This document shows positions 2,720-62,868 of a stretch of DNA of 64,000 bases, piece after piece. The translations under genes were made by a program, and so were the position numbers. The stretch spans positions 1 to 64,000 of the forward strand of contig RHGE01000033.1 in the NCBI GenBank assembly GCA_004296775.1, given 5' to 3'. The stretch comes from Marinilabiliaceae bacterium JC017. Its GTDB lineage: Bacteria; Bacteroidota; Bacteroidia; Bacteroidales; Marinilabiliaceae. Below the pieces are notes generated by a model. The model was not told where the DNA came from. It saw nothing but the letters and a program-made list of their open reading frames with translations, and made no database searches. Position 1 is the first letter of the stretch. Each line of letters starts with the position of its first letter.

Positions 2720-3616
2720 ATGAAAAAAATACTGATTATTCTATTTTTTGTCTTTCCATTAACGAGTTTTGGTCAAGTAAAAGTAAACTTGTTCAACGGA
2801 GATTTAAATAAAGCATTAGACACTGCTTCAATAGTGAATAAAAATGTTTTATTAATAATTGGGACAGCCTATTGTTCCCACTATATTCACTTTTCTGAAG
2901 AAGTGTTAAGTGATTCAAATATTATATCCTATTTAAATTCAGAATTTATAACCATGATTTTTAGAGCCGATTTAGCGGATAAAAAATCAAGAAAGGAGAT
3001 GAAAAAATATAATCGAAGTTGGCCAGGTTGGCCCCAGTTTTATGTGTTAGATTCAAATAAGAATTTAATTGCTGATTTTACCTATCCTTTAAATGTTACA
3101 AATGAGGAATTTTTAAAAATTATTAAAAGTTATAATACTATTGAAGAAGAGTGGCGGAAAATAAGAAAAGAAGCAAGACAAGGACAGCTATCTTATGACC
3201 AATTATTAAAATATATCAAATTTAGAGATATTAATTATAGTGCTTTTGAGGCTATTCAAATCAATAAACAAATTTCCAAATATTTAAAGGGATTAAATTC
3301 AAAAGATTGTTGCAATAAAAATAATTGGTATTTGTATAAAAACTATATAAAGGTTCATGAATTAGGTGTAGATGATAAGTTAGTGGCCTTTGTTGCTTTG
3401 CACAGTGCGGAATTCAAAAAGATAAATGGAGAAGAAGAAGTGTCTAATTATCTTTTAGAGAATTATCAACGAGAAATAAATTGGAGGAAGCCCGAAAAAG
3501 TTGATAAAATGGCTAGTAAGTATCCATATGACACGATTCCGGAGGCAATTAAAGCAGTTGAGCTATATAGAATGAAGGAACATACGCAAAGGATGATTAA
3601 AGAATACGAAAAATAG
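2720..3616 (+). CDS. exported thioredoxin-fold protein of unknown role
   Basis: A 298-residue protein starting MKKILIILFFVFPLTSFG, which is a clean signal peptide; an upstream in-frame start at 2618 would put 34 unlikely residues in front of it, so the later ATG is chosen. Residues ~20-130 look like a thioredoxin fold. LLIIGTAYCSHYIHFSEEV occupies the active-site region, but the second Cys of the CXXC motif is replaced (YCSHY), and WPQFYVLD carries the usual cis-Pro. The protein is therefore unlikely to be a normal disulfide reductase. A paired Cys (KDCCNK) appears near residue 190. The C-terminal half is charged and helical with no recognised domain. The gene lies between two 33-bp direct repeats and is more AT-rich than the genes around it, which suggests acquired DNA. 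Confidence 0.7.
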   Translation: MKKILIILFFVFPLTSFGQVKVNLFNGDLNKALDTASIVNKNVLLIIGTAYCSHYIHFSEEVLSDSNIISYLNSEFITMIFRADLADKKSRKEMKKYNRSWPGWPQFYVLDSNKNLIADFTYPLNVTNEEFLKIIKSYNTIEEEWRKIRKEARQGQLSYDQLLKYIKFRDINYSAFEAIQINKQISKYLKGLNSKDCCNKNNWYLYKNYIKVHELGVDDKLVAFVALHSAEFKKINGEEEVSNYLLENYQREINWRKPEKVDKMASKYPYDTIPEAIKAVELYRMKEHTQRMIKEYEK

Positions 3617-9429: not shown

Positions 9430-11370
9430 TTAGTTCAGATCGAAAGTGACCAATTTACCATTATCCAGGTAATAAAGTTTATTGGTTACTTTATCCAATT
9501 CGTAAATCACTTTGCGGTTGTCTCCAAAGTCAAAACTATCTACTTCTTTGCCTGTTTTCTTTTCAACTTTCACAATTGACATGTGATCCTGACCATCAAG
9601 TTTTTCTCCTTTCAGGAAGAAGGCAAAGTCTTTGGTTGATCGCGCAGCACCTCTTAATTTGGCGTCGTTCTTAAGCTTTCTGATTGCATCCGATTGGGCT
9701 CGTGATATTTCTCCCATGGCACGAGCATTGCTGGTGCTCATAAATAAGCCGCCGGAGTATAGCTCTTCACCTGTTTCACTGTCGGAAAATGTGACTTCGG
9801 TAGCCATTACACCCGTTGCTATGGATGCAGTCGACAGGGCCGCTTTTAATAAACGATCTGTTTTTAAGGGCTTAAAGTAGTTGTGGTTAACAACTTCACC
9901 CGTTTTGCTAAGCATGATATATTCATTCATACCGGTGATGAAATATCCACCCTTCATGGTTTCAAAACCAATAATTTCAGATGGTTCTTCAATATCCAGT
10001 TTAATCTTTTCTGCTTTCTTTTTAACGGTGTTAGGATCGAATACATAGAACTTCTTGCCATCCAGGATGGCTACCTTATTATTTCTATTATCAAAGGCAG
10101 TCTTCGAGTCCGGTGATAAGCTCATTTTCCAGATCTTCTTACCAGTTGCTTTGTTAAACAGTCCCACGAAGGTGGTGCCAACGATAAATGTCCCTTTTTC
10201 GTATTCTCTTTTAATCATGTCGCCTTCCGCATCTTCAGGCACATCATCAAATTCAATGGGTTTTTTCCAGGCTTTCTTACCGGTAGTCTTATTGATCAGC
10301 ATTATTTTATTGCCATAAAACACCTCTATGCCATCAGTTTTAACTACGATATCTTGAACGCGTTTAGTATCGTAATCTTTCTTCCACTTTTTGGTGCCGG
10401 TTTTAAAGTCGTAGATATTCACCCCTTTTTCATGAGCCACAACGAAAAGTTCATCATCGAGATTCACCTGCATGGTGTATTTTTCAGAAAGTTTCACGGG
10501 TTTTTTCCAAAGCTCCTTGCCGGTTTTAAGATCAATCGCAAACATTTCTTTTCCAAAGGCTTTGGGACCTTTTATGGCCATCAGGTTGCTGGCACCTGAT
10601 GCCTGGTTAATCACAACCAATGCCTGTTGCTTATTATCTAAGAAAAAAGTGCCGGGTTTACACTCATTCTGCCAAATTATGTCACCATTGCTGGAGTTAA
10701 TTAGAAAGAGCACTTTATCATGTTTGTAAACAATGTTATTGTCAGCAGTGGTTTGTGGGGTAAAACCATCCACATTCAAAGCACCCAGTGAAGAGGAGGC
10801 TTTAGCCGCCTTCATAATGTCTTTAGCACCACTGGGTGCGGCAAGTGTTTGTTTCCATTGTAATGATTTTGATTTAAGATCGATGCAGTAAAGTACTTTG
10901 GCTCCGCTTTCGGCTTTAACCTTTACCAATAACTTGTATAAATCAGGCAGGATGTTGTGGCTGATAATGTTTTTATACTTATCCTCACCTTGGCCAATTA
11001 AAACCTTACCAGTACTTACGTCAGCAAAATGGTTGTTGATGGAAACAAAAGGCGTAAAAGGAATTTCCCGGTACTTTTCATATTGACTGCCGGTAGTTAA
11101 TTCGCTTCCCGCCCCGGTCATAGCACTAATATTCTCTGCTTTGTTTAGTGCTTCCTGACCAGCAGCTTTTTTTACCGACCATAAAATCGATTTGTCCACA
11201 TAGTTAATGCCATAATAATAGTTGGAGGTTTCCACTATGGGAATGCCGGTAAAGCTGTGTTTAAAAATAGCCATAGGCTTTCCTTCCATAGGTAGCGTCC
11301 AATCTGGCTGCTTTTCTGCCATGGCCGATAGGCAAAGTATCAGACCGAATAAGAGTGTTAGTTTTTTCAT
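9430..11370 (-). CDS. exported PQQ-type (BamB-like) beta-propeller protein
   Basis: A 646-residue protein with signal peptide MKKLTLLFGLILCLSAMA. From residue ~20 to the end it is built of PQQ-type propeller blades, seen as repeated motifs such as DLKTGKELWKKPVKL, DFKTGTKKWKKDY, NKTTGKKAWKKPIEF and NKATGKKIWKMSL, with further blades in the N-terminal part. The final section has SDSETGEELYSGGLFMST and a second propeller-like segment. No dehydrogenase active-site residues or cofactor ligands are apparent, so it is more likely a scaffold or binding protein than an enzyme. Lys-rich repeats are unusual for outer-membrane BamB itself, and no lipobox is present. It is monocistronic with a strong terminator; the role is unknown. 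Confidence 0.85.
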   Translation of the reverse strand: MKKLTLLFGLILCLSAMAEKQPDWTLPMEGKPMAIFKHSFTGIPIVETSNYYYGINYVDKSILWSVKKAAGQEALNKAENISAMTGAGSELTTGSQYEKYREIPFTPFVSINNHFADVSTGKVLIGQGEDKYKNIISHNILPDLYKLLVKVKAESGAKVLYCIDLKSKSLQWKQTLAAPSGAKDIMKAAKASSSLGALNVDGFTPQTTADNNIVYKHDKVLFLINSSNGDIIWQNECKPGTFFLDNKQQALVVINQASGASNLMAIKGPKAFGKEMFAIDLKTGKELWKKPVKLSEKYTMQVNLDDELFVVAHEKGVNIYDFKTGTKKWKKDYDTKRVQDIVVKTDGIEVFYGNKIMLINKTTGKKAWKKPIEFDDVPEDAEGDMIKREYEKGTFIVGTTFVGLFNKATGKKIWKMSLSPDSKTAFDNRNNKVAILDGKKFYVFDPNTVKKKAEKIKLDIEEPSEIIGFETMKGGYFITGMNEYIMLSKTGEVVNHNYFKPLKTDRLLKAALSTASIATGVMATEVTFSDSETGEELYSGGLFMSTSNARAMGEISRAQSDAIRKLKNDAKLRGAARSTKDFAFFLKGEKLDGQDHMSIVKVEKKTGKEVDSFDFGDNRKVIYELDKVTNKLYYLDNGKLVTFDLN

Positions 11371-32421: not shown

Positions 32422-35400
32422 CTATCTTTTCAGAACTTGTTTTACCATGTTTCCATCAGTAGTTTGCAATTGAATCAGGTATGTTCCTGCGGGCAGTCCG
32501 GACATATCCAGTTTTTCTTTGGATATATTATGGAATTGCTTTTGCATGACTACATTTCCGGCAATATTCACAACGGAAATAAAAACTTCGCCATTGTAGT
32601 TGTCCATTTCCAGCCATAAATAATCCTGGCATGGGTTAGGATACAACTTCATTTGCATTTGTTTCACTTCATTAATGCCAGTAGCAGTGTTCACTGTTAC
32701 CGTGAACGAGGTTTCTACTGATTTGCCATTAGAGGTTCCTTTCAATGTAATTTGAGTTTTCCCCAAAGCATTAGGAACAAATGATAAACGCAGTTTTCTG
32801 TTCTCAATAACAGCGGTAAGCAGATCAGGATTACTTTGCTCTTTTATGGAAATTTCAATTAATGCATCGTCGTTATCCGGATCGGTAAACAACTGGCTTA
32901 AATCAATCAGCTTGTCTTCCGTAGTATTCACCAAGTCCATATTGGCTATGGGGTGATTTACTTCAGGGGCGAAATCAATCTTCTCTCCGTTGAAATTATC
33001 GATACAGAAATAGGCCGGAGTGGTTAATCCCTGGTCATTGTTACGGGAACCGGAAACAATAAACCGAATGGTTTTAACCTTTCCAAGTGATGACAGATCT
33101 ATCCATTTCCATTCTTTCAGCATAAAATGCTTGTCGGGATTAGTTGATCGGTAATCGGCCAGGTAAATGTCTTTACTATTGGTTATTGTTCCGTTATTAT
33201 CGTAGCCTGTAACGGTTACCATATAGTAATCACCCTGGGTGAATTCTCCACCTACATAGGAATCTCCATTTTCCATGGAATATAAAGTGTATACACTATT
33301 AGTGATGTACATACCTTTTACATTATCCTTTGTTGCGCCATTGTTCAAATGAATTTCCGGTACATAATTACAGGCATAAACAACGGCGTAATTACCTTCA
33401 TGGTTTACGTCTCCTCCTGCTGCATTTCTGAATTGTTGAGTAAGGTATTCAGAAGGATCAAATGTGGTACTGGTTTCATTCGAAATTCCAAATCCTTTCC
33501 AGGAATAATTGTTGGGTTGATAGAAATTGGAAAATTTGTATGACCCGCTATAGAAGAAACTACTTTCTTGCTCAGGATCACCTATCAGGTAACTTTCAGG
33601 TGTTAAAGCAATTTCTTCAAAGTCGGCTGTTTTAGTGACTGATGAGGTTACATTTACCAATACCTGATCGGAAATTTCCGAACCATACTTATCGGTTATT
33701 TCAATGGTGTATGCGGTAGTTGTAACAGGGGAAGCCTCCGGATTTAAAATGGTGGCATTGGATAAGGCATTAGCTGGTGACCATTGGTATTGGTAGGGTT
33801 TTACACCTCCGGATACCACTGGAGATAGTTGAATGCTCTCCCCTTCATTCACTGATAGTTCATCGGGCATATTTACCTGTAATGGTAATGGCATACCGCT
33901 GAAGTTGTCAATGGCGTAGCCACTGGCATTGGCAGCAAATTCAACACCGACAATACTTCCCAGTTCACGCATATCCACATAGGTCCAGCTGTCTGATGGC
34001 AACACGTTGATGCTTGTTGTATTGCTTCCATCCTTCAGTTTTCCGGTGATTTGTAATTGGGATGCTGACTTGATGAAAAAGCCGTTAAGAATTAATCCTT
34101 CTTCGGTATTCAGGATTGATACTGTTGCAGCGGTGTTGGCTGCGACGTTGGCGTACTGCAGGCTGCTTTCCACTCCTTCTCCCTTGGTGACAGTGAATCC
34201 TTCGAAGTGTGCGGTACCATCATTAAAGCTGGTAGTTCCTTCGGCAAGTGTTTCAAATGATGAAGGTTCTGTGATTTTATGAGTGGTAGCAAAAGCGCAT
34301 TTTACCGGTGCTTCCATGCAGTTACCCAGGTTGTCTTCTGCAACAAGGTAAGCATCATATTGGGTATGATCGGTCAGGTTAGTGATTGAGAATGTCTCCT
34401 CCCGATCTTTGTTGATTTCAATACTACCTGCCATTCCGGCTTCTAATGCTGTGTTAGCCGCATTGGTTCCTGCTTTTACCTGTGCTACCGATGGTGTTGC
34501 CGCATCTTTATTTAAAGTCACAAAATAAAGTTTTCCGTTTTGATCCGTTTGGGCGGCCAGTTGAGCGGAATAATGATTCGTCATCACCACTTTGGGGTAA
34601 CCTTCAGCAAATACAGGTGCGGTGGTTGAAGCCGCCTGGTATTCATCTGCCCCCATGGTTGGATGCTCAGTATTTCGCTCATCACCATCGATATCTTCAG
34701 TAATCAATAAGCCTGAAGTACCGGTGTTTAAGTTTCCTTTAGCCTTTATGTGCAAATCAGTTTCGGAATAGAATACCACCTCCTCGGAGATGGAATGAGC
34801 TCCTTTACCAATGGCTTTCCAGGCAGCGAGGTTTTCGTACTGGACTTGTTTATATCCTTTTACAAGGATTCCTTCGCTGTATAAATTGTTATAGTCCAGG
34901 TGACATTGGTCCAGTTTGTTTTCACTATTTACTACCAGGGCAGGGGCTTGTCCTTCGCTTATCAGGATGTTGTTTTTCATGTTAACACTCTGTACCGGGT
35001 AGTTCAGTACAAAGGCAGCTTTCCCTATACCACTACCGGTAATTTTAATCGTGTTGTGGTAAATTCCAATGTGTTCAGCGGAACTGATGGATATTCCGCT
35101 AGCATTTTTGTTGGATGAAGAGATGTTCACAATATTGTTGAATACCATGAGTTCATCATTTTCATTTCCAACGGCTTTTTGGAGGTAGATGCCTTTAGCT
35201 TCTTCTATGCTGACATCTAAACGAATGATATTATTGGATACAATTGTTTTTCCTTTAGGATTTCGAATTGTAAGAGCATTAAAATCACTCTTGGTAGTGC
35301 TGTTATTCACCACCATGTTGCCCTGAATTGTTCCATCTGTAATATCAGAAAACCAAAGTGCTTTTGAGTGTTGTTTTTCGAACCGGTTTCCTTGAATGAG

Positions 35401-38400
35401 GTGTCCTTTCTCTTTGGGCAGTCTTGTATAGCCAGTACCCCAAATGCTTATGCCGTTGTATCCACCACTAACCAGGTTATTGATAAAGCTCAGGCGATCG
35501 TTGTTTTTATTGGCTTCATTCTTGGCTTTAGTTGATACGCAGCAAACTCCACTAATACTTGTGGAATTAGGAGCAATCAGCTTATTTCCTTTAAAAACCA
35601 GGTCGGTACTTACATCACGGATATAAACCAAAGCTACCATGCTTTTATTGGTAGTTTTAATAGTCATGTTTTCAAAGTGAAAGTAATCACCTCCTTCAAA
35701 GGTCAGTACTCCATATTTGGGTTTATCATACCCCGGATCAATATATCTGTTGTAGATCAAAGTCACGTCATCCGCATTGCCCGTTTCCGATTTAAAGGTG
35801 ATGGTGTTATCTGTGGAGGTACCCTGTATGGCAGGAATTTTTACTTGTTCGAGGTAAACGCCTGATTCCACGTTGAAAGTTACCGGGCCATCCACACCAT
35901 TTTTTAATGCTTCAACAGCTGTAGAGAAAGAGGTATAATCACCAGTTTCTCCAATGGTATACTCTCCATGGAAACCAGTCTGAATTTGTCGTCCTGGTGT
36001 TGTCTCACCCGGTTGAAGTGTATGAATATCGCCATTGATGCTGATATTTTTACACTGGCCATTAACAATGTTACCTGGTGTAGCTGATTTGGTTATGTCG
36101 TATACCAACCAGAAGTAATAGGTCTCTTCCGCCGCAATTTTTATATCTCCGGTGATGGTAAATTCTCCGGAGGGTGCAAGTACTGTTTCGCCAAATTTGG
36201 TAGCTCCGGCTAAATTGAATTCTTCGGATGTTCCTGTATAAAACACAGAAGCTGTGGCGATGTCGCTATCCAGGGTGGTTCCTTCGGTAGTGAAGGTTAT
36301 TGATTCCACTTTGGCGGGTTGTATTTCGCCTTTGAAACCAACGGCCAATTGGAGTATGTTGGTCTCTTTTTCCGACTTCAAAACCTTGCCTGTTTCCGGT
36401 TGTGAGTCTGTCGCTGATTCAAAGTGGATGGGTTGTTGAACAAAGCTCTTCACGTCAGCTTCCCAGCCTGTTTTAGCGGAACCATACGATGGAGAAGTAA
36501 ATTTAACTGTTAACTTTCCATCATCAGTAGATGACTTAAAGAAATAGGGCTGGTCGGTTTTGTTGATGTTCTCATCATCATCCATTTTTTTTAACAACGC
36601 ATCGTCGCTAACTTTCCCTCCATTATAGATATATAGTTTAGGCCCATCATTAATATCCAGTTTGGAGATAGTCAGCCGTACTTTATGAGTAATGTCTTCC
36701 GGAATAAAAGTTACGACACCGTTGAATTTCTTACTGTATTTTTCAGATATACCACCGTTGTCATAAAACATAGTAGAGAATTGATTCACAGTTACCTGAT
36801 TTACTCCTGCCTCCATGTTATAAATTTTCTTTATGGGACGGTTGCCCTCCGGGGACGGATTTTCAAGGGTATGGGTCTCTTCATTAATTTCCACATCCAG
36901 GCATTGGGCATCCAGCACATTTCCCGGGGTCGCATTCGCTTTTACGTCATACACTAACCAGAAGTAATTATTTCCCTCCATCAGTGTTTGGGAGTAATCA
37001 AAGCTAAATGTACCGTTGGGATCAACAATTGTTTCTCCTACCTGGGTGGTAGTGGCAAATTGATTACTACGTCCGGTAGTATATAATTTGGCTGATGCAA
37101 TATCGGCCGGAGAGGTAGATCCGTTGGTGGAAAAGTTTAACTGAAGGTTTTTAAAGGGATTTAAAGCACCTTCAGTCTTTACAATAGCTCCAAGAATCAA
37201 TTGATCATTACTACCTGCACGGATAATATCCGTGTTTTGTGTCAGGAGTGTTTCCTTGTAAACCATCGGTGAAGGGATATAGGTTTTTACCTGCGCTTCC
37301 CAGCCATTTTTGGTATGGGATGAACTGCTGGCCTTTCCTTCAAAACAGACAGTTAAGCAGCCATCTTCTGTAGTGGAGCAGATAGGTGCCCCAGGACCTG
37401 TTTCACAATCTTCGGCTTGCGTTTTATACAGGAGGTTATCTGTTGTTTTCTCACGGCCATTGTAAACTTCAAATTTTGCTTTGGTCCCGTAGCTATAGCT
37501 TGAAAAATAGAGTGCGAATGAGGAGAATGTAATCTTTACTTTTTCACCCGCATTAGCCGGTTCAAAAGTAACTGTTCCTTTGGCATTGTAAGTGTATTTA
37601 CCGCCTGTTCCTTCATTGTCATCGGTAAAATCAAAGGGAGTATAGACTGTTTTGGTATGGGTGCCTGATTTTGGCATGTGGTAGGTGTTATCGATAACCC
37701 GGTTCCCTTCCGGTGATGTGTTGGAAGGAGTCTTCTCCTTTTTGTCTATAACAATAGCGTTACAAACGGCATCCACTTTATTCCCATTTGCTGCCAAAAT
37801 GGCTATGTCGTAAGTAACCCAGAAATAGTTTTTACCATATTTCAGAGCCTGATCTTGTTGAATTTCAAATTCACTTGCCGGGTTGTCAACAGAACCAAAC
37901 AGTGTTGCATCTGAAAACTCCTTCGAGTTTCCGGAATAGAAAATGTTGGCTTTGGCAATATCAGAAGCTGCTGTGGTTTCTCCCAGGCCAAGTTTTATTT
38001 TAGAAACAGTTAATGTATTTAACGTGTTTTCAGTCACTACTTCTAAACGCAACATTTGTGTGTTTTGGTCTCCTGCTGCCACTATTTCGGTTGAGGGGTG
38101 GACGGCATCGGAAGAGACATACACCATGTTCTGTGGAACAATTTCTGATACATCAGCTACCCAGCCTGACCATGGAGTTCCGGTATTAACCTTGAAATAA
38201 ATGGTTAGAGAACCATCGGGTGCTGAAGATATTATTTTCGACGGAAGATTTTTGGGTCCGGAATAGTATTGGCTTTCCTTTCCGTAGTATTTTCCAATCA
38301 GTATGTCCTCATTGGTTGTATTACCATTAAATACCTTAAAAATATCGTTGGTGCGGGTAATTGATTTATTCTGAAATATTTCAAATGAAGACCAGTCGAT

Positions 38401-40338
38401 TTGTATTTTTCTGTTTGGATCGGAGGGAACGAAAGTTATTGTTCCTTCAAAGTCGTCACTGTACTTATTCGCTTCACCACCATTGTCGTAGAATAACAGA
38501 TTCTCTTTTACCGTACAGGTGTTTTTGCCAGAAGGCATATTCAACATCCGTTTTAAAATCCGGTTACCTTCTGGAGCGGTGATTGTAGGTGTTTCATTTT
38601 CTGTTCCAAAGGAAACAGAAGTGCATTCAGCATCTACAACATGATCCTGGATGGCATCGGAATTGATATCATAGGTTAGCCAAAAATAATTTTTTCCTTC
38701 CATTAGTTCCTGACTGCCCTCAATTTTAAATGATCCGTTTGGAAGGGAAAAATTACCAAATTGAGTGGTGGTGGAAAATTCTTCCGATTTACCTGTATAG
38801 TATACCTTGGCATTGGTAATATCTGCAGGATCAGTTGTTCCATTAGTGGAAAAGGTGATGGCGCTGGCATGCAGTTTATCTTTAGCACCTTTGGTAATAA
38901 TCTTTAATCTAATAATCTGATTATTGGTTGTACCGATGGATAACAGATCGGTGTTGCATTGTTCGGTGGTGGAGCTCACATATTGCATGGGTGATGGTTC
39001 AAAAACTTTAATCTGATCGAGGAAAAGATTATTTGAACCATAATCGCTTGTAGCTTTGAACTGAATCAGTGTTTGATCGGTTGCTCCTGTCAAGTCTAAT
39101 TGTACTTCCGTCCATTGGTCAACACTACCATCTGCATCCTGATTGTAAATTTCGGTGAAGGTTAATCCGTTATCGACAGAGATATTCACGGTAAGGTTGG
39201 CATCCGGATCGGAATCCTTTTCGCATTGCCACCAGAATTTGAGCTGGGGCGAATTGAGCGTTGATATCGCCAAAGGAGGGGTGGTAAGGGTAGCGATTTT
39301 TCCGTTACTCATGTAAGTTACCTTAGCCATGGCAGCTTTTTTACCCTCAGGTACGTTACCTGGGCCATTTGAAGTACCATTATTACTTGACCAGCCATAT
39401 TTGTTATGATTGGAGGTAGTTTGCCAACCAATCGGAGGAAATTGAGTGGCTTCAAAGCCCTCGAACCATGGGAATGTGCGTATGGTAGGATCATCCTTTA
39501 CGGTAAAACTCCAAACGGGTACCTGGGATGTTTCACCATAATCATTGTAAGGTGCTACTTTCCAATAGTAGGTAGTGGCAAAGGCTAATTTAGTAGCAGG
39601 AAAAGTTGTTACCTTGCCCAGATCTTTCCCGTTAATTATATTGGTAGCGGCAGCATCGGTTCCCAGGTACATTTTATAGCCCTTAGCATAGTCAGCTTTG
39701 TTCCAGGATAATTGAATTTGTTTATCCATTCCGGTACTCTCATCAGCAGGAAGCAGGACGGTAGTGGCCAACGGTGGTTCCTGAGGAATATAAAGAGCAG
39801 GGCCTGAAATATCATCGATGGCGATATTGCATTGGCCGCTACTCCATGAACTGGATGCCCAAAATCGAATTTGAACTTTATTACTTGTTGAATAGGCTGA
39901 GAGGTCCAGGGTATGTGCTGTCCAATCGCTTTCATTGGCGCTATTTTCAATATTTAGCACATCAGTGGTCCATGTTTGCCCACCATCATTAGAAACATCT
40001 ACATGTAAGCCGTTACTTTTGGGTGTGACAACAGTATAAAAGCTTAATATTTTTATACTTTGGGTTAAATCCAATAATGGAGTATATAAATGAGCTGTTT
40101 TACCTTTGTAGGTAACACAACTCTCAAATTCTGCAAAATAGGTACCTGTGTGAGGTGTGGAAATGCTGTGGTTTCCTGATTCTGTTAATTGCCAGCCTTT
40201 TGTGTTTCCCTGGCTTTTCTCGTGTTGCCAGCGTTCAGGGGGATACGTTTCCCCTTCAAAGCTCTCGTTTAAAAACACCTGTGCTTGTAGCAAGGAGCTT
40301 AAAATCATTAGAATTGATAAAACGTAAGTTTTCTTCAT
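32422..40338 (-). CDS. 2,638-residue surface protein with T9SS tail, DUF4465-like domain, B12-riboswitch controlled
   Basis: Signal peptide 1-19 (MKKTYVLSILMILSSLLQA). Then a choice-of-anchor-J/cleaved-adhesin domain (~20-185), an FN3-like domain (~190-280) and a second adhesin/MAM-like domain (~285-450). Four BNR-associated N-terminal-type modules start near 451, 739, 1024 and 1303, with three CUB-like modules between them (near 600, 886 and 1174; motif FYDNGGxxxKYS). Residues ~1460-1870 look like a right-handed beta-helix, followed by Ig-like parts, a DUF4465-like domain (~2230-2450) and a T9SS C-terminal domain from ~2560 (LYPNPCQDYLWLEM...KQVLKR). It is probably exported and anchored at the surface. 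The cobalamin riboswitch upstream implies a role in corrinoid capture or B12-replaceable metabolism; DUF4465 proteins recur under such riboswitches in Bacteroidota. No catalytic residues were identified. Confidence 0.9.
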   Translation of the reverse strand: MKKTYVLSILMILSSLLQAQVFLNESFEGETYPPERWQHEKSQGNTKGWQLTESGNHSISTPHTGTYFAEFESCVTYKGKTAHLYTPLLDLTQSIKILSFYTVVTPKSNGLHVDVSNDGGQTWTTDVLNIENSANESDWTAHTLDLSAYSTSNKVQIRFWASSSWSSGQCNIAIDDISGPALYIPQEPPLATTVLLPADESTGMDKQIQLSWNKADYAKGYKMYLGTDAAATNIINGKDLGKVTTFPATKLAFATTYYWKVAPYNDYGETSQVPVWSFTVKDDPTIRTFPWFEGFEATQFPPIGWQTTSNHNKYGWSSNNGTSNGPGNVPEGKKAAMAKVTYMSNGKIATLTTPPLAISTLNSPQLKFWWQCEKDSDPDANLTVNISVDNGLTFTEIYNQDADGSVDQWTEVQLDLTGATDQTLIQFKATSDYGSNNLFLDQIKVFEPSPMQYVSSTTEQCNTDLLSIGTTNNQIIRLKIITKGAKDKLHASAITFSTNGTTDPADITNAKVYYTGKSEEFSTTTQFGNFSLPNGSFKIEGSQELMEGKNYFWLTYDINSDAIQDHVVDAECTSVSFGTENETPTITAPEGNRILKRMLNMPSGKNTCTVKENLLFYDNGGEANKYSDDFEGTITFVPSDPNRKIQIDWSSFEIFQNKSITRTNDIFKVFNGNTTNEDILIGKYYGKESQYYSGPKNLPSKIISSAPDGSLTIYFKVNTGTPWSGWVADVSEIVPQNMVYVSSDAVHPSTEIVAAGDQNTQMLRLEVVTENTLNTLTVSKIKLGLGETTAASDIAKANIFYSGNSKEFSDATLFGSVDNPASEFEIQQDQALKYGKNYFWVTYDIAILAANGNKVDAVCNAIVIDKKEKTPSNTSPEGNRVIDNTYHMPKSGTHTKTVYTPFDFTDDNEGTGGKYTYNAKGTVTFEPANAGEKVKITFSSFALYFSSYSYGTKAKFEVYNGREKTTDNLLYKTQAEDCETGPGAPICSTTEDGCLTVCFEGKASSSSHTKNGWEAQVKTYIPSPMVYKETLLTQNTDIIRAGSNDQLILGAIVKTEGALNPFKNLQLNFSTNGSTSPADIASAKLYTTGRSNQFATTTQVGETIVDPNGTFSFDYSQTLMEGNNYFWLVYDVKANATPGNVLDAQCLDVEINEETHTLENPSPEGNRPIKKIYNMEAGVNQVTVNQFSTMFYDNGGISEKYSKKFNGVVTFIPEDITHKVRLTISKLDINDGPKLYIYNGGKVSDDALLKKMDDDENINKTDQPYFFKSSTDDGKLTVKFTSPSYGSAKTGWEADVKSFVQQPIHFESATDSQPETGKVLKSEKETNILQLAVGFKGEIQPAKVESITFTTEGTTLDSDIATASVFYTGTSEEFNLAGATKFGETVLAPSGEFTITGDIKIAAEETYYFWLVYDITKSATPGNIVNGQCKNISINGDIHTLQPGETTPGRQIQTGFHGEYTIGETGDYTSFSTAVEALKNGVDGPVTFNVESGVYLEQVKIPAIQGTSTDNTITFKSETGNADDVTLIYNRYIDPGYDKPKYGVLTFEGGDYFHFENMTIKTTNKSMVALVYIRDVSTDLVFKGNKLIAPNSTSISGVCCVSTKAKNEANKNNDRLSFINNLVSGGYNGISIWGTGYTRLPKEKGHLIQGNRFEKQHSKALWFSDITDGTIQGNMVVNNSTTKSDFNALTIRNPKGKTIVSNNIIRLDVSIEEAKGIYLQKAVGNENDELMVFNNIVNISSSNKNASGISISSAEHIGIYHNTIKITGSGIGKAAFVLNYPVQSVNMKNNILISEGQAPALVVNSENKLDQCHLDYNNLYSEGILVKGYKQVQYENLAAWKAIGKGAHSISEEVVFYSETDLHIKAKGNLNTGTSGLLITEDIDGDERNTEHPTMGADEYQAASTTAPVFAEGYPKVVMTNHYSAQLAAQTDQNGKLYFVTLNKDAATPSVAQVKAGTNAANTALEAGMAGSIEINKDREETFSITNLTDHTQYDAYLVAEDNLGNCMEAPVKCAFATTHKITEPSSFETLAEGTTSFNDGTAHFEGFTVTKGEGVESSLQYANVAANTAATVSILNTEEGLILNGFFIKSASQLQITGKLKDGSNTTSINVLPSDSWTYVDMRELGSIVGVEFAANASGYAIDNFSGMPLPLQVNMPDELSVNEGESIQLSPVVSGGVKPYQYQWSPANALSNATILNPEASPVTTTAYTIEITDKYGSEISDQVLVNVTSSVTKTADFEEIALTPESYLIGDPEQESSFFYSGSYKFSNFYQPNNYSWKGFGISNETSTTFDPSEYLTQQFRNAAGGDVNHEGNYAVVYACNYVPEIHLNNGATKDNVKGMYITNSVYTLYSMENGDSYVGGEFTQGDYYMVTVTGYDNNGTITNSKDIYLADYRSTNPDKHFMLKEWKWIDLSSLGKVKTIRFIVSGSRNNDQGLTTPAYFCIDNFNGEKIDFAPEVNHPIANMDLVNTTEDKLIDLSQLFTDPDNDDALIEISIKEQSNPDLLTAVIENRKLRLSFVPNALGKTQITLKGTSNGKSVETSFTVTVNTATGINEVKQMQMKLYPNPCQDYLWLEMDNYNGEVFISVVNIAGNVVMQKQFHNISKEKLDMSGLPAGTYLIQLQTTDGNMVKQVLKR

Positions 40339-40525
40339 GAATAATTAATTTGAAAAAATTTATAATGGAGGTGTTGACTCGATGATCTTAAGCATCAGCA
40401 GGCAAACCTCATAGTTATTCTATGAAGCATTGGGTTTTGTAAAGGCTATAAAAAATAAGACGACAGCTATTGTTCGATTATTTTTCATCCCTTCAGCTTT
40501 AACTCCCGAAAGCTTCAAGTATTGA

Positions 40526-40716
40526 TAATGCTGGCAGGTTTTCTGACTTATCCCATTTCAGACGCCTTCCCATCACTCCCCGGTATTATCCGGGATAGAA
40601 AACAGTGGCAGAGGTATTGTCTGAAACTTTTAGGAATTACAGCAGCGGGTACTGTTCCGGATTTCAACCGGATTCCCTTTTCATTTCGTCAACCGAATGG
40701 TTGACTGAAACACCAG
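40526..40716 (-). ncRNA. cobalamin (B12) riboswitch
   Basis: Read on the minus strand it shows the conserved elements in order: GGGAATCCGGTTGAAATCCG with ACAGTACCCGCTGCTGTAA, then GCCACTG, then GGGAAGGCG, and the B12 box AGTCAGAAAACCTGCC. It lies ~190 bases before the giant T9SS gene with no other gene between, so it should control that gene, normally switching it off when cobalamin is plentiful. The spacer 40339-40525 contains an AGCTTT...AAAGCT hairpin and a CTTCATAG...CTATGAGG hairpin that could form the expression platform. Confidence 0.95.
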
Positions 40717-41839
40717 AATTATTTCACAATTAGTACTTTTAAAATGTCATTTTAAGCATGAAGCTTTTTAGCTTGAATTGTCTTCCCTGGTTCTTTCCAT
40801 TAGATTAAGTGTTTTGTATTTGTTTTAATTAGTAATTGAATTCGTTTATCTATTGTGATAGATAGTCTATGGTTATATGTGTATCGGAATTGTTATGGTG
40901 TGCTAAATAAGCGGATTGACTATTTATATTATGTGTATAAGTTAAGGTCGTATCTCTTATAAAGGATTTTTTTAGTGAAAAACGGTCTTTTCGTGAGTGA
41001 TTCTTACCCGATGGAATTTAGCCGGAATCCACCCAATTGTTTGCCAGAACTTTTGTAATAAGTATCCACTGGTTGGTTGTTACGGGCAAAAATATGGTTA
41101 TTCTCTATTTCCTCTTCGTCTTTGGTCGTGATAGTATGATCAGGAAAACAGCGTAAGGTTTTAGTAGTCTTGGGAAAAGGGTTTTTCATTAGTTCAGGTT
41201 GAGAAATTGGTATTAGTGTCTTATCAATAATGTTTGTGTATTTTTTAGCAGGCTATTGCAATACCGGTTATGTAAAAATCTTGATACTCATATCTGTGTG
41301 CTTTTCTGGCTTGTCCAGGTTAGGTATAGATATTTTGATGGGCAAATATAGTAAATATGACCATTGGAAGGTTCGAATAATGGGGGAAAATGTTTGGATG
41401 GATCGCGGAGGTGGGGCTGTGGGAGAGGTGGTTAGTGTGTTTAGTGGTTTTAGAGTTTTGAGTTTGTGTGTTTTGGGTTGGCAGTTTCATTCCTGATGAA
41501 GGGAATAATGACCGGAGAGAGGGGAAGCTTGATAGATGATCCATGATATTTAATTTCTGTTTTTTCTTGTAAAGGTGCCAGGGGATGCGAGGTGTGATGA
41601 TATTATTCAATCGTACACACCACCTAGCGTTTGTAAATCCACTATTCAACCCCCTAAGATTAGGGGGACTAAGGGGGTAAGCAAGCAGGTGGAAGAAAAT
41701 GTTGAATGCATAATCCTCAGTTTTGCATTTATTTATAACCTCTGTTTCCATTGTCTTAACACTAAATTTTAAGTGAATGTAAAAAGCACCAGAGAAATAC
41801 AGGGTAATTAAGAGTAAACTATAATTTACTGTTGTTTTT
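40717..41839. other. intergenic, repeat-bearing
   Basis: No gene is confidently supported. A 61-codon minus-strand frame at 41004-41189 has no recognised domain. An ACCCCCTAA-type hairpin sequence at about 41650-41680 is a dispersed element of the kind common in Bacteroidota spacers. Confidence 0.4.
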
Positions 41840-42230: not shown

Positions 42231-42344
42231 TGAACTCCTGAATGGGAAACTAACTGTTAGCAATGGAACGCGATACAATCGCGCACCAGCGGGGGACAAA
42301 GATGAAACTCCATGCTGCATTAACATAACAACACCAGCGATAGG

Positions 42345-42534
42345 GGTTAATTAGTTGAAGAAAAATTATAACGATCGCACGCCAGGTTTCAATCCTACGT
42401 AAAAGTCAACCACCTTGCCTTCTTTCTCCTATTTTGTTTCCTTTCTTTATTTTATTTGAATATTGATTATGGTGGTAGTTTTGAGATTATTGTTTGTTTT
42501 AGGGCATTGAATTTTTAGACAAAGCATGGGATGG
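42345..42534 (+). repeat. shared ~190-bp upstream module, copy before the pentapeptide gene
   Basis: The sequence from GGTTAATTAGTTGAAG to GCATGGGATGG recurs at 60879-61065 with moderate divergence. Both copies end 70-90 bases before the start of an unrelated gene, so they look like a common leader. Confidence 0.75.
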
Positions 42535-42620
42535 AAATAGGCGAAATATAAAACATGTGATGTCTATTATTAAGTTGTGCATCATCGAAAAGAATTTGCG
42601 AATAATTAGAGAAATATAAA

Positions 42621-43199
42621 ATGACAAATGAAATAATCACTCATGAGAACAAAGTATTTGAAAATGTTAACCACTCTGGAAAAATATTGAGAAACAGAGA
42701 ATTTTATAAATGTACATTTGTAATGTGCGATTTTACAAAAAGTGATTTGAGAGGTAATGATTTTGAAGATTGCACTTTTCAGGACTGTAACTTTTTAATG
42801 ACAGAAATAGAAGGTGTGGGTTTTAGAAGTGCAGCCTTTATAGGGTGCAAAATTCTCGGAATTGATTTTACAAGGTGCAATAAACTTATGTTTTCTTTCA
42901 GGTTTGAAAATTGCATTATGGACTATTGCACATTTTTTGGTACAAAGTTAAAAAAGACGCATTTCATAAAATGTTCTCTCAAAGAAGTCGATTTTGCCGA
43001 AACGGATTTATCTTCTTCAATATTTACTAATACCGACTTGATGGGAGCGCAATTTTCAAATACCGTTCTTGAAAAGGCAGACTTTCGTAGCTCAACAAAC
43101 TTTTCTATCGATCCTGAATCTAACAAACTCAAGAAAGCCAAATTTTCTGCATTTCAACTTGAAGGATTGCTGTATAAGTATCAATTGGATATTGTGTAA
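42621..43199 (+). CDS. pentapeptide-repeat protein (Qnr/McbG-like)
   Basis: A 192-residue protein built of A(D/N)LXX-type pentapeptide repeats through most of its length (CDFTKSDLRGNDFEDCTFQDCNF, CSLKEVDFAETDLSSSIFTNTDLMGAQF), giving a right-handed quadrilateral beta-helix. It lacks a signal peptide and membrane segment. Its size and repeats resemble the McbG/Qnr proteins, which protect gyrase from toxins by DNA mimicry, but an assignment to that function needs more than the fold. It is preceded by the shared leader module and followed by an attC-like hairpin, so it looks like a single-gene cassette. Codon use is AT-rich compared with the core genes in the window. Confidence 0.85.
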   Translation: MTNEIITHENKVFENVNHSGKILRNREFYKCTFVMCDFTKSDLRGNDFEDCTFQDCNFLMTEIEGVGFRSAAFIGCKILGIDFTRCNKLMFSFRFENCIMDYCTFFGTKLKKTHFIKCSLKEVDFAETDLSSSIFTNTDLMGAQFSNTVLEKADFRSSTNFSIDPESNKLKKAKFSAFQLEGLLYKYQLDIV

Positions 43200-43227
43200 C
43201 TATTAAAAAATACGAACAAATTACGAA

Positions 43228-43372
43228 TGCACAACAAGCTGCATAAAGTAGCTCTGGCTTTGGCGGTGCTTGGAAGTTCAGCTCCCGCGCAAACTACAGG
43301 AAAACTTAGAAAGCGAATATACCACACGCCACCCGGGCTACTTCATATAGCCGAGCCGTTGTGTGGTATATG
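43228..43372 (+). repeat. attC-like long imperfect hairpin with CACAAC/GTTGTG ends
   Basis: The 5' arm TGCACAACAAGCTGCATAAA... (43228-43268) pairs with the 3' arm ending ...GCCGAGCCGTTGTGTGG (43325-43366), through shared CACAAC, GCT, AAGTAGC and TGGCG blocks with bulges. The loop is ~55 bases. This resembles an integron attC in size and layout, but the ends do not match the canonical RYYYAAC/GTTRRRY cores. It lies 28 bases after the pentapeptide gene. Confidence 0.7.
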
Positions 43373-43808
43373 ATAAAAACATAATTTAACCTGAGTAACT
43401 ACCTCGATTTTGTTACATTTGGAAACCCTAAAATTAGATTATGATTGTTATATCCTCATCCCTTAATTATTCTTGGCCATTCCTGGCAAGACTACGCTAC
43501 TTTATAAGCAATACTTTTGAAAGAGATACCGTGATTTTATTGGATGATGTTTCTGATAATTCTTAGAGGTGTATTTATTATGTCAAAATTGCTTGGAGTG
43601 AGCATCTTTTTAAGAATTAAATAAGATGTATATACACTTGGTAGGGATACTGAAACGTTGTGTTTCATGGTAAAAATACCCTGCAAAAAAAAGCAAGACA
43701 CATTTAATAGCCCTTTTGTCAATGCAAATAAAAACGGCCAAAGGGAATGGTTGGCAACCGTACAATGAGACAGTTGATGAAAATAAGAAAACAAGTTAAA
43801 TATTTATA
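43373..43808. other. spacer with a possible 41-codon remnant
   Basis: A short frame at 43441-43566 (MIVISSSLNYSWPFLARLRY...) has no domain and is probably a remnant. No terminator or RNA is seen before the UDG gene. Confidence 0.35.
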
Positions 43809-44531: not shown

Positions 44532-44640
44532 ACTAGTTCCCATTTTGAAGCGGTTCCAAGAGCAATTTTTCAACATAGAACTATTCCCAAATATTACCAA
44601 TCAGGCCTCGATGATCCGAAGTGCGCGAGCCGGACAAATA

Positions 44641-44750
44641 AGCGGGCCGGTGTAGGCGCGACGAAAATGAATGCGGGAATTCCGGGTAGTGGGTTGGAAG
44701 AAATTCATCGATGAGGTGGGTGGAGGCGTTTATTTGACTAGCGTTTTCTG
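44641..44750 (-). repeat. inverted partial copy of the 30.5-kb spacer repeat
   Basis: On the minus strand this reads GTCAAATAAACGCCTCCACC and continues with CATTCATTTTCGTCGCGCCT, matching 30508-30612 in the opposite orientation. Confidence 0.7.
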
Positions 44751-44765
44751 CTTCGTTTTTGGGGC

Positions 44766-44850
44766 AACGTTTCAGGTTAAAACACAGAGACGTAAAGGCA
44801 CAGAGTTTTTAGAAGGAGAGGGGGTCAGTTAGTATATTTTTTTCGAAACC
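44766..44850 (+). repeat. 86-bp direct repeat, copy 2
   Basis: Partner of the repeat at 44446. It is followed by the hairpin CCGCACGAA-TCCT-TTCGTGTGG (44858-44879), which leads towards the group II intron relic. Confidence 0.8.
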
Positions 44851-60856: not shown

Positions 60857-60878
60857 GCCTGAAAACACCAACTCCAGC

Positions 60879-61065
60879 GGTTAGTTAGTTGAAGAAAAAT
60901 AAGAACGACCGCGTCCCAAGTTTCAATCCTTCGTAAGTCTACCGTTTTGAATCCTTTCGCATGATTTGTTTCCTTTCATTACTTTAATTTAATAATGATT
61001 ATGGTGTGAATTAGAGATTGTTGTTTATCTTAGGAGGTCGAATTTTTCGACAAAGAATGGGGTGG
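60879..61065 (+). repeat. shared ~190-bp upstream module, copy before the TlpA-like gene
   Basis: Matches 42345-42534 from GGTTAGTTAGTTGAAG to GAATGGGGTGG. The following gene is unrelated to the pentapeptide protein. Confidence 0.75.
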
Positions 61066-61134
61066 TATGTGGTAAATTTAAAACACGCTCAGTATATCAT
61101 CAAGTTGTTCAAAACAAACCCAATAAAGCAAAAT

Positions 61135-62325: not shown

Positions 62326-62340
62326 AAGTTCAGCACACAA

Positions 62341-62402
62341 TATATAGGCCTTCATACGGTGCGCCCCACCCAGCAATGAAGGTTCGGTTGGACTATATAT
62401 CC
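62341..62402 (+). repeat. imperfect hairpin after the TlpA-like gene
   Basis: ATATATAG and CCTTCAT in the 5' arm are matched by ATGAAGG and CTATATAT in the 3' arm, with a 10-base bulge. It resembles the position and style of the hairpin at 43228 but shares little sequence. Confidence 0.55.
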
Positions 62403-62868
62403 TGCGGGCAAAATACGCTATGGTTTTTGCAAGGGATTCCTCTTCTTGAATTTATAAAAAGCGCTTTGGAAAGAGAGTTGTTTTTGAGGGTGATCCAGGG
62501 TTAATTTGCTTTCATATTTATTTTTTAACCTGCATCATACAATGAACGTGTAGATGAAAGCTGAGGTTTTGTCCGCAGGAATGCAACAGTCAAACGGCAC
62601 CGCTCTGAGCACTAAAATAGCTGTGCCAGTATGCCAGAAGGACATGCAATATAGAGGCAAACAGGTGGGCGTGAAACCAGCTGGTGAATGGCATTGAGTT
62701 CATGTGGCAGGGTAAAAACGATGTGGTAATGCTTTGTTGGATAGGTATTTTTGATGGGGTCTTGGAAGGGGTACGGAGAATTACTGAAGCATTTTAAACT
62801 TCCCCGGCCAAAGAATATTCATAATAATGTATAAATTTATGCTGACAGATTGTGAAATGTAATAGCAG
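62403..62868. other. spacer, probable group II intron body residue
   Basis: No ORF is supported. The stretch ends directly in an intron domain V, so part of it may be degraded intron domains I-IV; I could not fold or match it by eye. Confidence 0.35.

Follow-up and report, generated by a model that had tools for sequence, protein, structure and literature searches.

The systems closest to the one considered here are the IntI integrons, both those of class 1 and the sedentary chromosomal or super-integrons, with which it shares an attI-like insertion point, attC hairpins carrying R and L boxes and conserved unpaired bases, and a crossover between G and TT (hereafter G/TT, the slash marking the boundary). 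Equally shared are the arrays, in which cassettes mostly hold a single gene and point the same way, and the occurrence of lone cassettes and of arrays devoid of an integrase. The I2 insert of IntI has been described as necessary for cassette capture, as the element that gives single-strand recombination and as present in no other protein (PMC7790495), and the insertion has also been called essential, though not fully conserved (PMC8138268); in addition, intI genes have been selected by their additional domain (PMC2426708). The integrons of the Bacteroidetes/Chlorobi group (Chlorobi, Ignavibacteriae and Salinibacter; PMC9024848) belong to the same broad phylum as the present locus but have a canonical IntI, a complete integron being reported, within Bacteroidetes proper, only in Salinibacter (PMC9024848). 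As far as the catalytic part of the recombinase is concerned, the closest solved folds and sequence profiles are those of XerA and of the archaeal XerC-like proteins (NF040815; PDB 5hxy, 4a8e). Xer resolves chromosome dimers at dif sites; the gene described below differs in having an added N-terminal domain and in being tied to cassette arrays.

The window, i.e., the whole stretch of 64,000 nucleotides analysed, comes from a genome of 6.65 Mb in 500 contigs. An initial annotation had pointed to an imperfect palindrome with CACAAC/GTTGTG ends starting 28 bases 3' of a pentapeptide-repeat gene, without canonical RYYYAAC/GTTRRRY cores and without an integrase in the window, and had suggested that it may be a cassette-recombination site of a system not yet described in Bacteroidota. 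The palindrome was confirmed, its best bounds being those of Table 1 vs the 43228–43372 first given; the core boxes are GCACAAC and GTTGTGT, so that the canonical ones are indeed absent, and a whole-genome search found no integron-integrase-like gene on the window's contig, leaving the cassette without an adjoining recombinase. The hairpin is very likely an attC-type site that closes a gene cassette, the cassette being part of an integron-like system found in Bacteroidia; this reading was reached without a recombination assay.

Table 1. Features of the cassette and of its surroundings in the window
Feature	Position	Strand	Evidence
Conserved leader of ~230–250 bp, ending at the cassette start	42330..42574	+	75–78% identical copies before other genes
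Gene cassette, 784 bp	42575..43358	+	From just after G42574/TT to G43358 of the attC site
Pentapeptide-repeat protein, 192 aa, sole gene of the cassette	42621..43199	+	ORF; Pfam Pentapeptide_4, E=9e-37
attC-like recombination site	43223..43368	+	Covariance model R1; three ~79% copies in the genome
R'' arm ATGCACAAC	43227..43235	+	Sequence; AAC invariant in the 23-sequence alignment
L'' arm, pairing with L'	43238..43254	+	Arm fold; covarying pairs of the stem in relatives
L' arm	43335..43352	+	Arm fold; covarying stem pairs in relatives
R' arm, crossover inferred between G43358 and T43359	43358..43366	+	Sequence; CGTT invariant in the family
Weak attI-like sequence	43604..43660	+	GATGTATATACAC also present in the attI-like site on contigs C23 and C155

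The start of the cassette, TTGTGCAT (42575–42582), is the exact reverse complement of ATGCACAA (43227–43234) in the 5' arm of the attC site, the element before the pentapeptide gene beginning G42574/TTGTGCATC and the hairpin terminating CCG43358/TTGTGTGG. Such a complementarity characterises integron cassettes, for in the circular form the cassette's own start rebuilds R'; in the window the match amounts to 8 of 12 positions, below the usual 9–11. One strand of the hairpin folds moderately, and folding of the single sequence (z = -1.66, with 13 of 200 shuffles equally good) is weak evidence when taken alone; since it barely beats the shuffles, the case for this hairpin rests on comparison. The exact unpaired bases of this copy also remain uncertain, its own arms folding slightly differently in the arm-folding script.

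The comparison was made with a covariance model (R1), for which 23 array attCs were drawn from the arrays of other genomes and from other contigs, with no window sequence included. This model matches the hairpin with 45 bits (E=2.3e-9) and finds no second attC in the window, the next best match having E=0.12. In the alignments of 23 and of 86 sites all six stem pairs display two-sided changes, and in the larger one 174 two-sided cells stand against 3 one-sided, so that both structure and covariation of the site are shown; G-U pairs are nearly missing and therefore a pairing of DNA rather than of RNA fits. The arm fold consists of ~7 bp, one unpaired base per side, 4 bp, one unpaired base per side and 6 bp, with short unpaired spacers separating the R and L boxes, and resembles known attC sites in its boxes, its spacer and its extrahelical bases. 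At its gathering threshold Rfam returned nothing for the hairpin, and the DNA adjoining 13 canonical IntI loci (46 kb, a small sample) gave no match to the model. The only Rfam match in the window is a cobalamin riboswitch (RF00174, 94.9 bits) at 40516–40732 on the minus strand, upstream of the gene of a 2638-aa protein (32422–40338).

Three further copies of the hairpin, with ~79% identity, are present in the same genome, each behind a different and unrelated gene or unit (a SUKH protein, a two-ORF unknown and an unknown). Contig C46 has two of them in short arrays, together with further sites (L010:11978-12118 and L009:18334-18477), and there, for example, a cassette starting TTAGCGGT has the attC arm ACCGCTAA. 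On contig C23 a tyrosine recombinase of ~400 aa is followed by a terminator-like repeat, by the junction GATGTATATACACCTGGGAAAACTTACTGGGGTG/TTAGCGGTC, by a NACHT-domain gene and by an attC with the arm ACCGCTAAC, while contig C155 carries the same recombinase end and a nearly identical attI-like sequence followed by different first cassettes, the start and arm of which are TTATGCGC and GCGCATAAC for the first and TTAGCTGC and GCAGCTAAC for the next. Another recombinase of the genome, on contig C262, was dropped as a platform because neither attI nor attC could be recognised behind it, yet it is a member of the same clade.

The surroundings of the window cassette are less clear. Further copies of the leader lie at 60864–61111 of the window and on contig C468 (L011:7294-7525 and 10663-10792); the possibility that it represents a second attC was rejected, the covariance model giving no match there, and the leader stays unexplained, although it may conceivably be an attI-like platform without an integrase, or the remnant of one, which is an inference. 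The weak attI-like sequence downstream has an 81% copy behind another cassette on C46, and its resemblance to attI, judged by eye, is no more than a possibility. The window copy thus appears as a lone cassette with intact ends, the location of which outside any array is unexplained, and it cannot be ruled out that this single copy is a decayed remnant.

Several other recurring elements were observed. The sequence T(C/T)(G/A)AG(N)AGCCAGCC, which starts immediately behind ...AA at the expected C of the attC R'' arm, occurs in L026 (behind two cassettes), in L011 at ~10291 and 11985 and in L004 at ~2170, as if another element had been inserted there or a second type of site existed, either of which is possible. 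A repeat of ~120 bp (GGCCTTCA...TGAAGG) occurs three times, following genes, at the end of the contig that holds the window (window 62331–62460; L023:1498-1617 and 3195-3312), and a cassette-like start, TTGGCGGTT (~62941), matches AACCGCCAA before the second of these copies. Finally, an intergenic repeat of ~170 bp, 82–89% identical, is dispersed over several contigs (window 44591–44780; L009, L011, L025).

The search made with the genome's own recombinase yielded 18 loci, eight of which are Bacteroidota loci with usable downstream DNA (among them Paenimyroides, Aequorivita, Flavobacterium frigoris, Saprospiraceae and Chitinophagaceae), and all eight have G/TT behind the recombinase and a matching arm downstream. 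About half of 40 further loci from relatives display the same combination, with chains of up to six cassettes directly behind the recombinase; for many of these 40 too little DNA was left on the contig for the downstream test, while L077, L082, L107 and L110 have enough downstream DNA, yet no scoring attI/cassette pattern. Altogether, judged by sequence only, an attI-like G/TT is found 24–267 nt 3' of the recombinase stop codon in about 25 loci. In the controls behind Xer or short recombinases with at least 2.5 kb available the runs were of 4–8, those of the positives being mostly of 8–12; since scoring of the first cassette at single loci is only moderately powered, weight is put on whole arrays.

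The arrays themselves, their association with the recombinase and the rule governing cassette ends are shown by sequence. Sites resembling attC were found in 84 of 119 related genomes, in clusters of up to 30, and they co-occur with the recombinase (56 vs 1 against 28 vs 34; Fisher p=2e-11, a value that is overstated, related genomes not being independent). In the 28 genomes having sites and no detected recombinase, fragmentation or decay is possible. Most of the genomes are drafts. Two complete genomes contain 139 clustered attCs, all on a single strand within each array region, G041 having 74 in four clusters over ~210 kb with the recombinase at one end and G036 having 65. In these two genomes the start of the cassette matches the arm of its own attC at no fewer than 8 of 9 bases in 114 of 130 cassettes, compared with 4.4–4.7% of shuffled pairs. 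GTTRRRY fits merely 11 of 118 cassettes, the R' of the window being GTTGTGT. The typical unit is one accessory gene followed by an attC of ~125–195 nt; the longest ORFs lie in the attC orientation in 39 of 43 cases and their functions are varied or unknown. A plasmid of Chryseobacterium also bears the recombinase and cassettes. Such an integron-like system of gene capture is common in this order of Bacteroidota.

The covariance-model check therefore supports the cassette-recombination-site reading of the initial annotation, the structure being found between unrelated single genes in one orientation; a restriction to the pentapeptide gene family, which would have refuted it, was not seen, and a tyrosine recombinase does occur in the same genomes, adjoining the arrays. 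That the system had not been described also held, inasmuch as no published account of these arrays was found in the open-licence literature searched, preprints and most subscription papers being outside the search.

A sign of mobility is a 1286-bp cassette that is 100% identical in two genera, g13 and g21 (G066, L078:7515-8804; G020, L096:9428-10717), its flanks having identities of only 0.22/0.32 and both its edges being placed exactly at G/TT. Its gene, above the Erm family cut-off, encodes an Erm(F)-related 23S rRNA methyltransferase and runs counter to the attC orientation of the cassette, on the opposite strand. Cross-contamination of the two drafts is not excluded, although the difference between the flanks speaks against it.

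Within the cassette arrays genes for reverse transcriptases of the group II intron type were also observed (L114:15678-16994 and the G036 array, L140-L141); IIC introns are known at classical attC sites. Multi-copy short tyrosine recombinases (~280–314 aa; G008, G031, G036, G041), one G041 copy of which is inside an array region, form a separate clade (100/99).

Of the alternatives, the one that survives best, and is nevertheless very unlikely, is that these are canonical integrons with a normal IntI that profiles score poorly. In its favour, relatives of the recombinase reach ~170–218 bits with the NCBIfam integron integrase model TIGR02249, and IntI4 is, with XerA and the archaeal XerC-like protein, among the closest solved folds; the product name already in use at NCBI for such proteins is "site-specific tyrosine recombinase/integron integrase". 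Against it, these scores are under the 265-bit cut-off and the alignment falls into two stretches, skipping model positions ~180–239 where the IntI insert (I2) lies. The distance between KDR and RHSFA is 61–65 aa vs 103–105 in IntI and 70–71 in Xer (only 3 of 16 IntI rows were usable in the motif scan, and there were outliers, namely 12 and 54 for the new family and, for Xer, two of 28). In a tree of 87 rows IntI forms one clade (100/100) beside recombinases of the Patescibacteria type (96/96), the new family remaining outside; an AU test rejects IntI and the new family as a single clade (p=0.009) and does not reject the new family as one clade (p=0.46). True IntI above the cut-off is present in 84 of the 296 genomes of a phylum sample, and just one of these 84 belongs to the present class. 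An AlphaFold model (pLDDT 79.5; pTM 0.48, which leaves the packing of the domains uncertain) predicts a beta-alpha mini-domain at the N-terminus, and the position of I2 is without a helix. The enzyme is thus a relative of the integron integrases without the IntI-specific insert, integron-like yet failing IntI membership, its activity being inferred; nor is it the Xer that resolves chromosome dimers in these genomes, since there is a distinct Xer clade (100/100). It also differs from IntI in pointing towards its array, with attI behind its 3' end, and in an R' of the form GTTR followed by variable bases.

A second alternative, namely that the hairpin is an ordinary intrinsic terminator or an RNA structure behind a gene, could draw on its position 28 nt past a stop codon and on the moderate fold of one strand; it is all but excluded, since a length of ~145 nt with AAC/GTT ends is atypical of terminators, the gathering threshold of Rfam leaves just the riboswitch, a covariation almost free of G-U suggests pairing of DNA, and the outer arm follows the sequence with which its own cassette begins. 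A third alternative, that of a REP- or MITE-like repeat landed by chance behind genes, has the many dispersed intergenic repeats of the genome in its favour and can be practically dismissed, being refuted for the family by sites that separate genes in same-strand, head-to-tail arrays adjoining a recombinase, by outer arms that vary from site to site so as to match the cassette closed, and by a common cassette that starts and stops at G/TT.

With the integron-like reading retained, the mechanism that may be proposed is inferred in its single-stranded nature, in the strand used, in the recombinase taken as agent and in recombination activity itself. The gene upstream of the array, which points the same way, encodes a tyrosine recombinase that lacks the I2 insert and has an additional N-terminal domain; this enzyme would act on an attI-like G/TT site behind the stop codon of its own gene. 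One strand of attC would fold to a hairpin, the recombinase would cut R' between G and TT, and the cassette would exit as a circle to re-enter at attI or at another attC. A bolder reading, which in our judgement is as likely to prove wrong as right, is that Bacteroidia evolved a second kind of integron independently of IntI, in which an Xer-like recombinase without the I2 helix acts on folded single-stranded cassette sites, some other feature, perhaps the N-terminal domain, recognising the hairpin and avoiding exchange of the second strand; its "independent origin" hangs on a single long-branched tree.

A widespread cassette system without the I2 helix makes the view that I2 is necessary directly testable. 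Surveys requiring the additional domain (PMC2426708) would miss such systems, which may explain why the class Bacteroidia looks nearly free of integrons. The system holds large unseen pools of genes and can reside on a plasmid, as in Chryseobacterium, and these pools include an Erm-family methyltransferase gene in an identical cassette of two genera.
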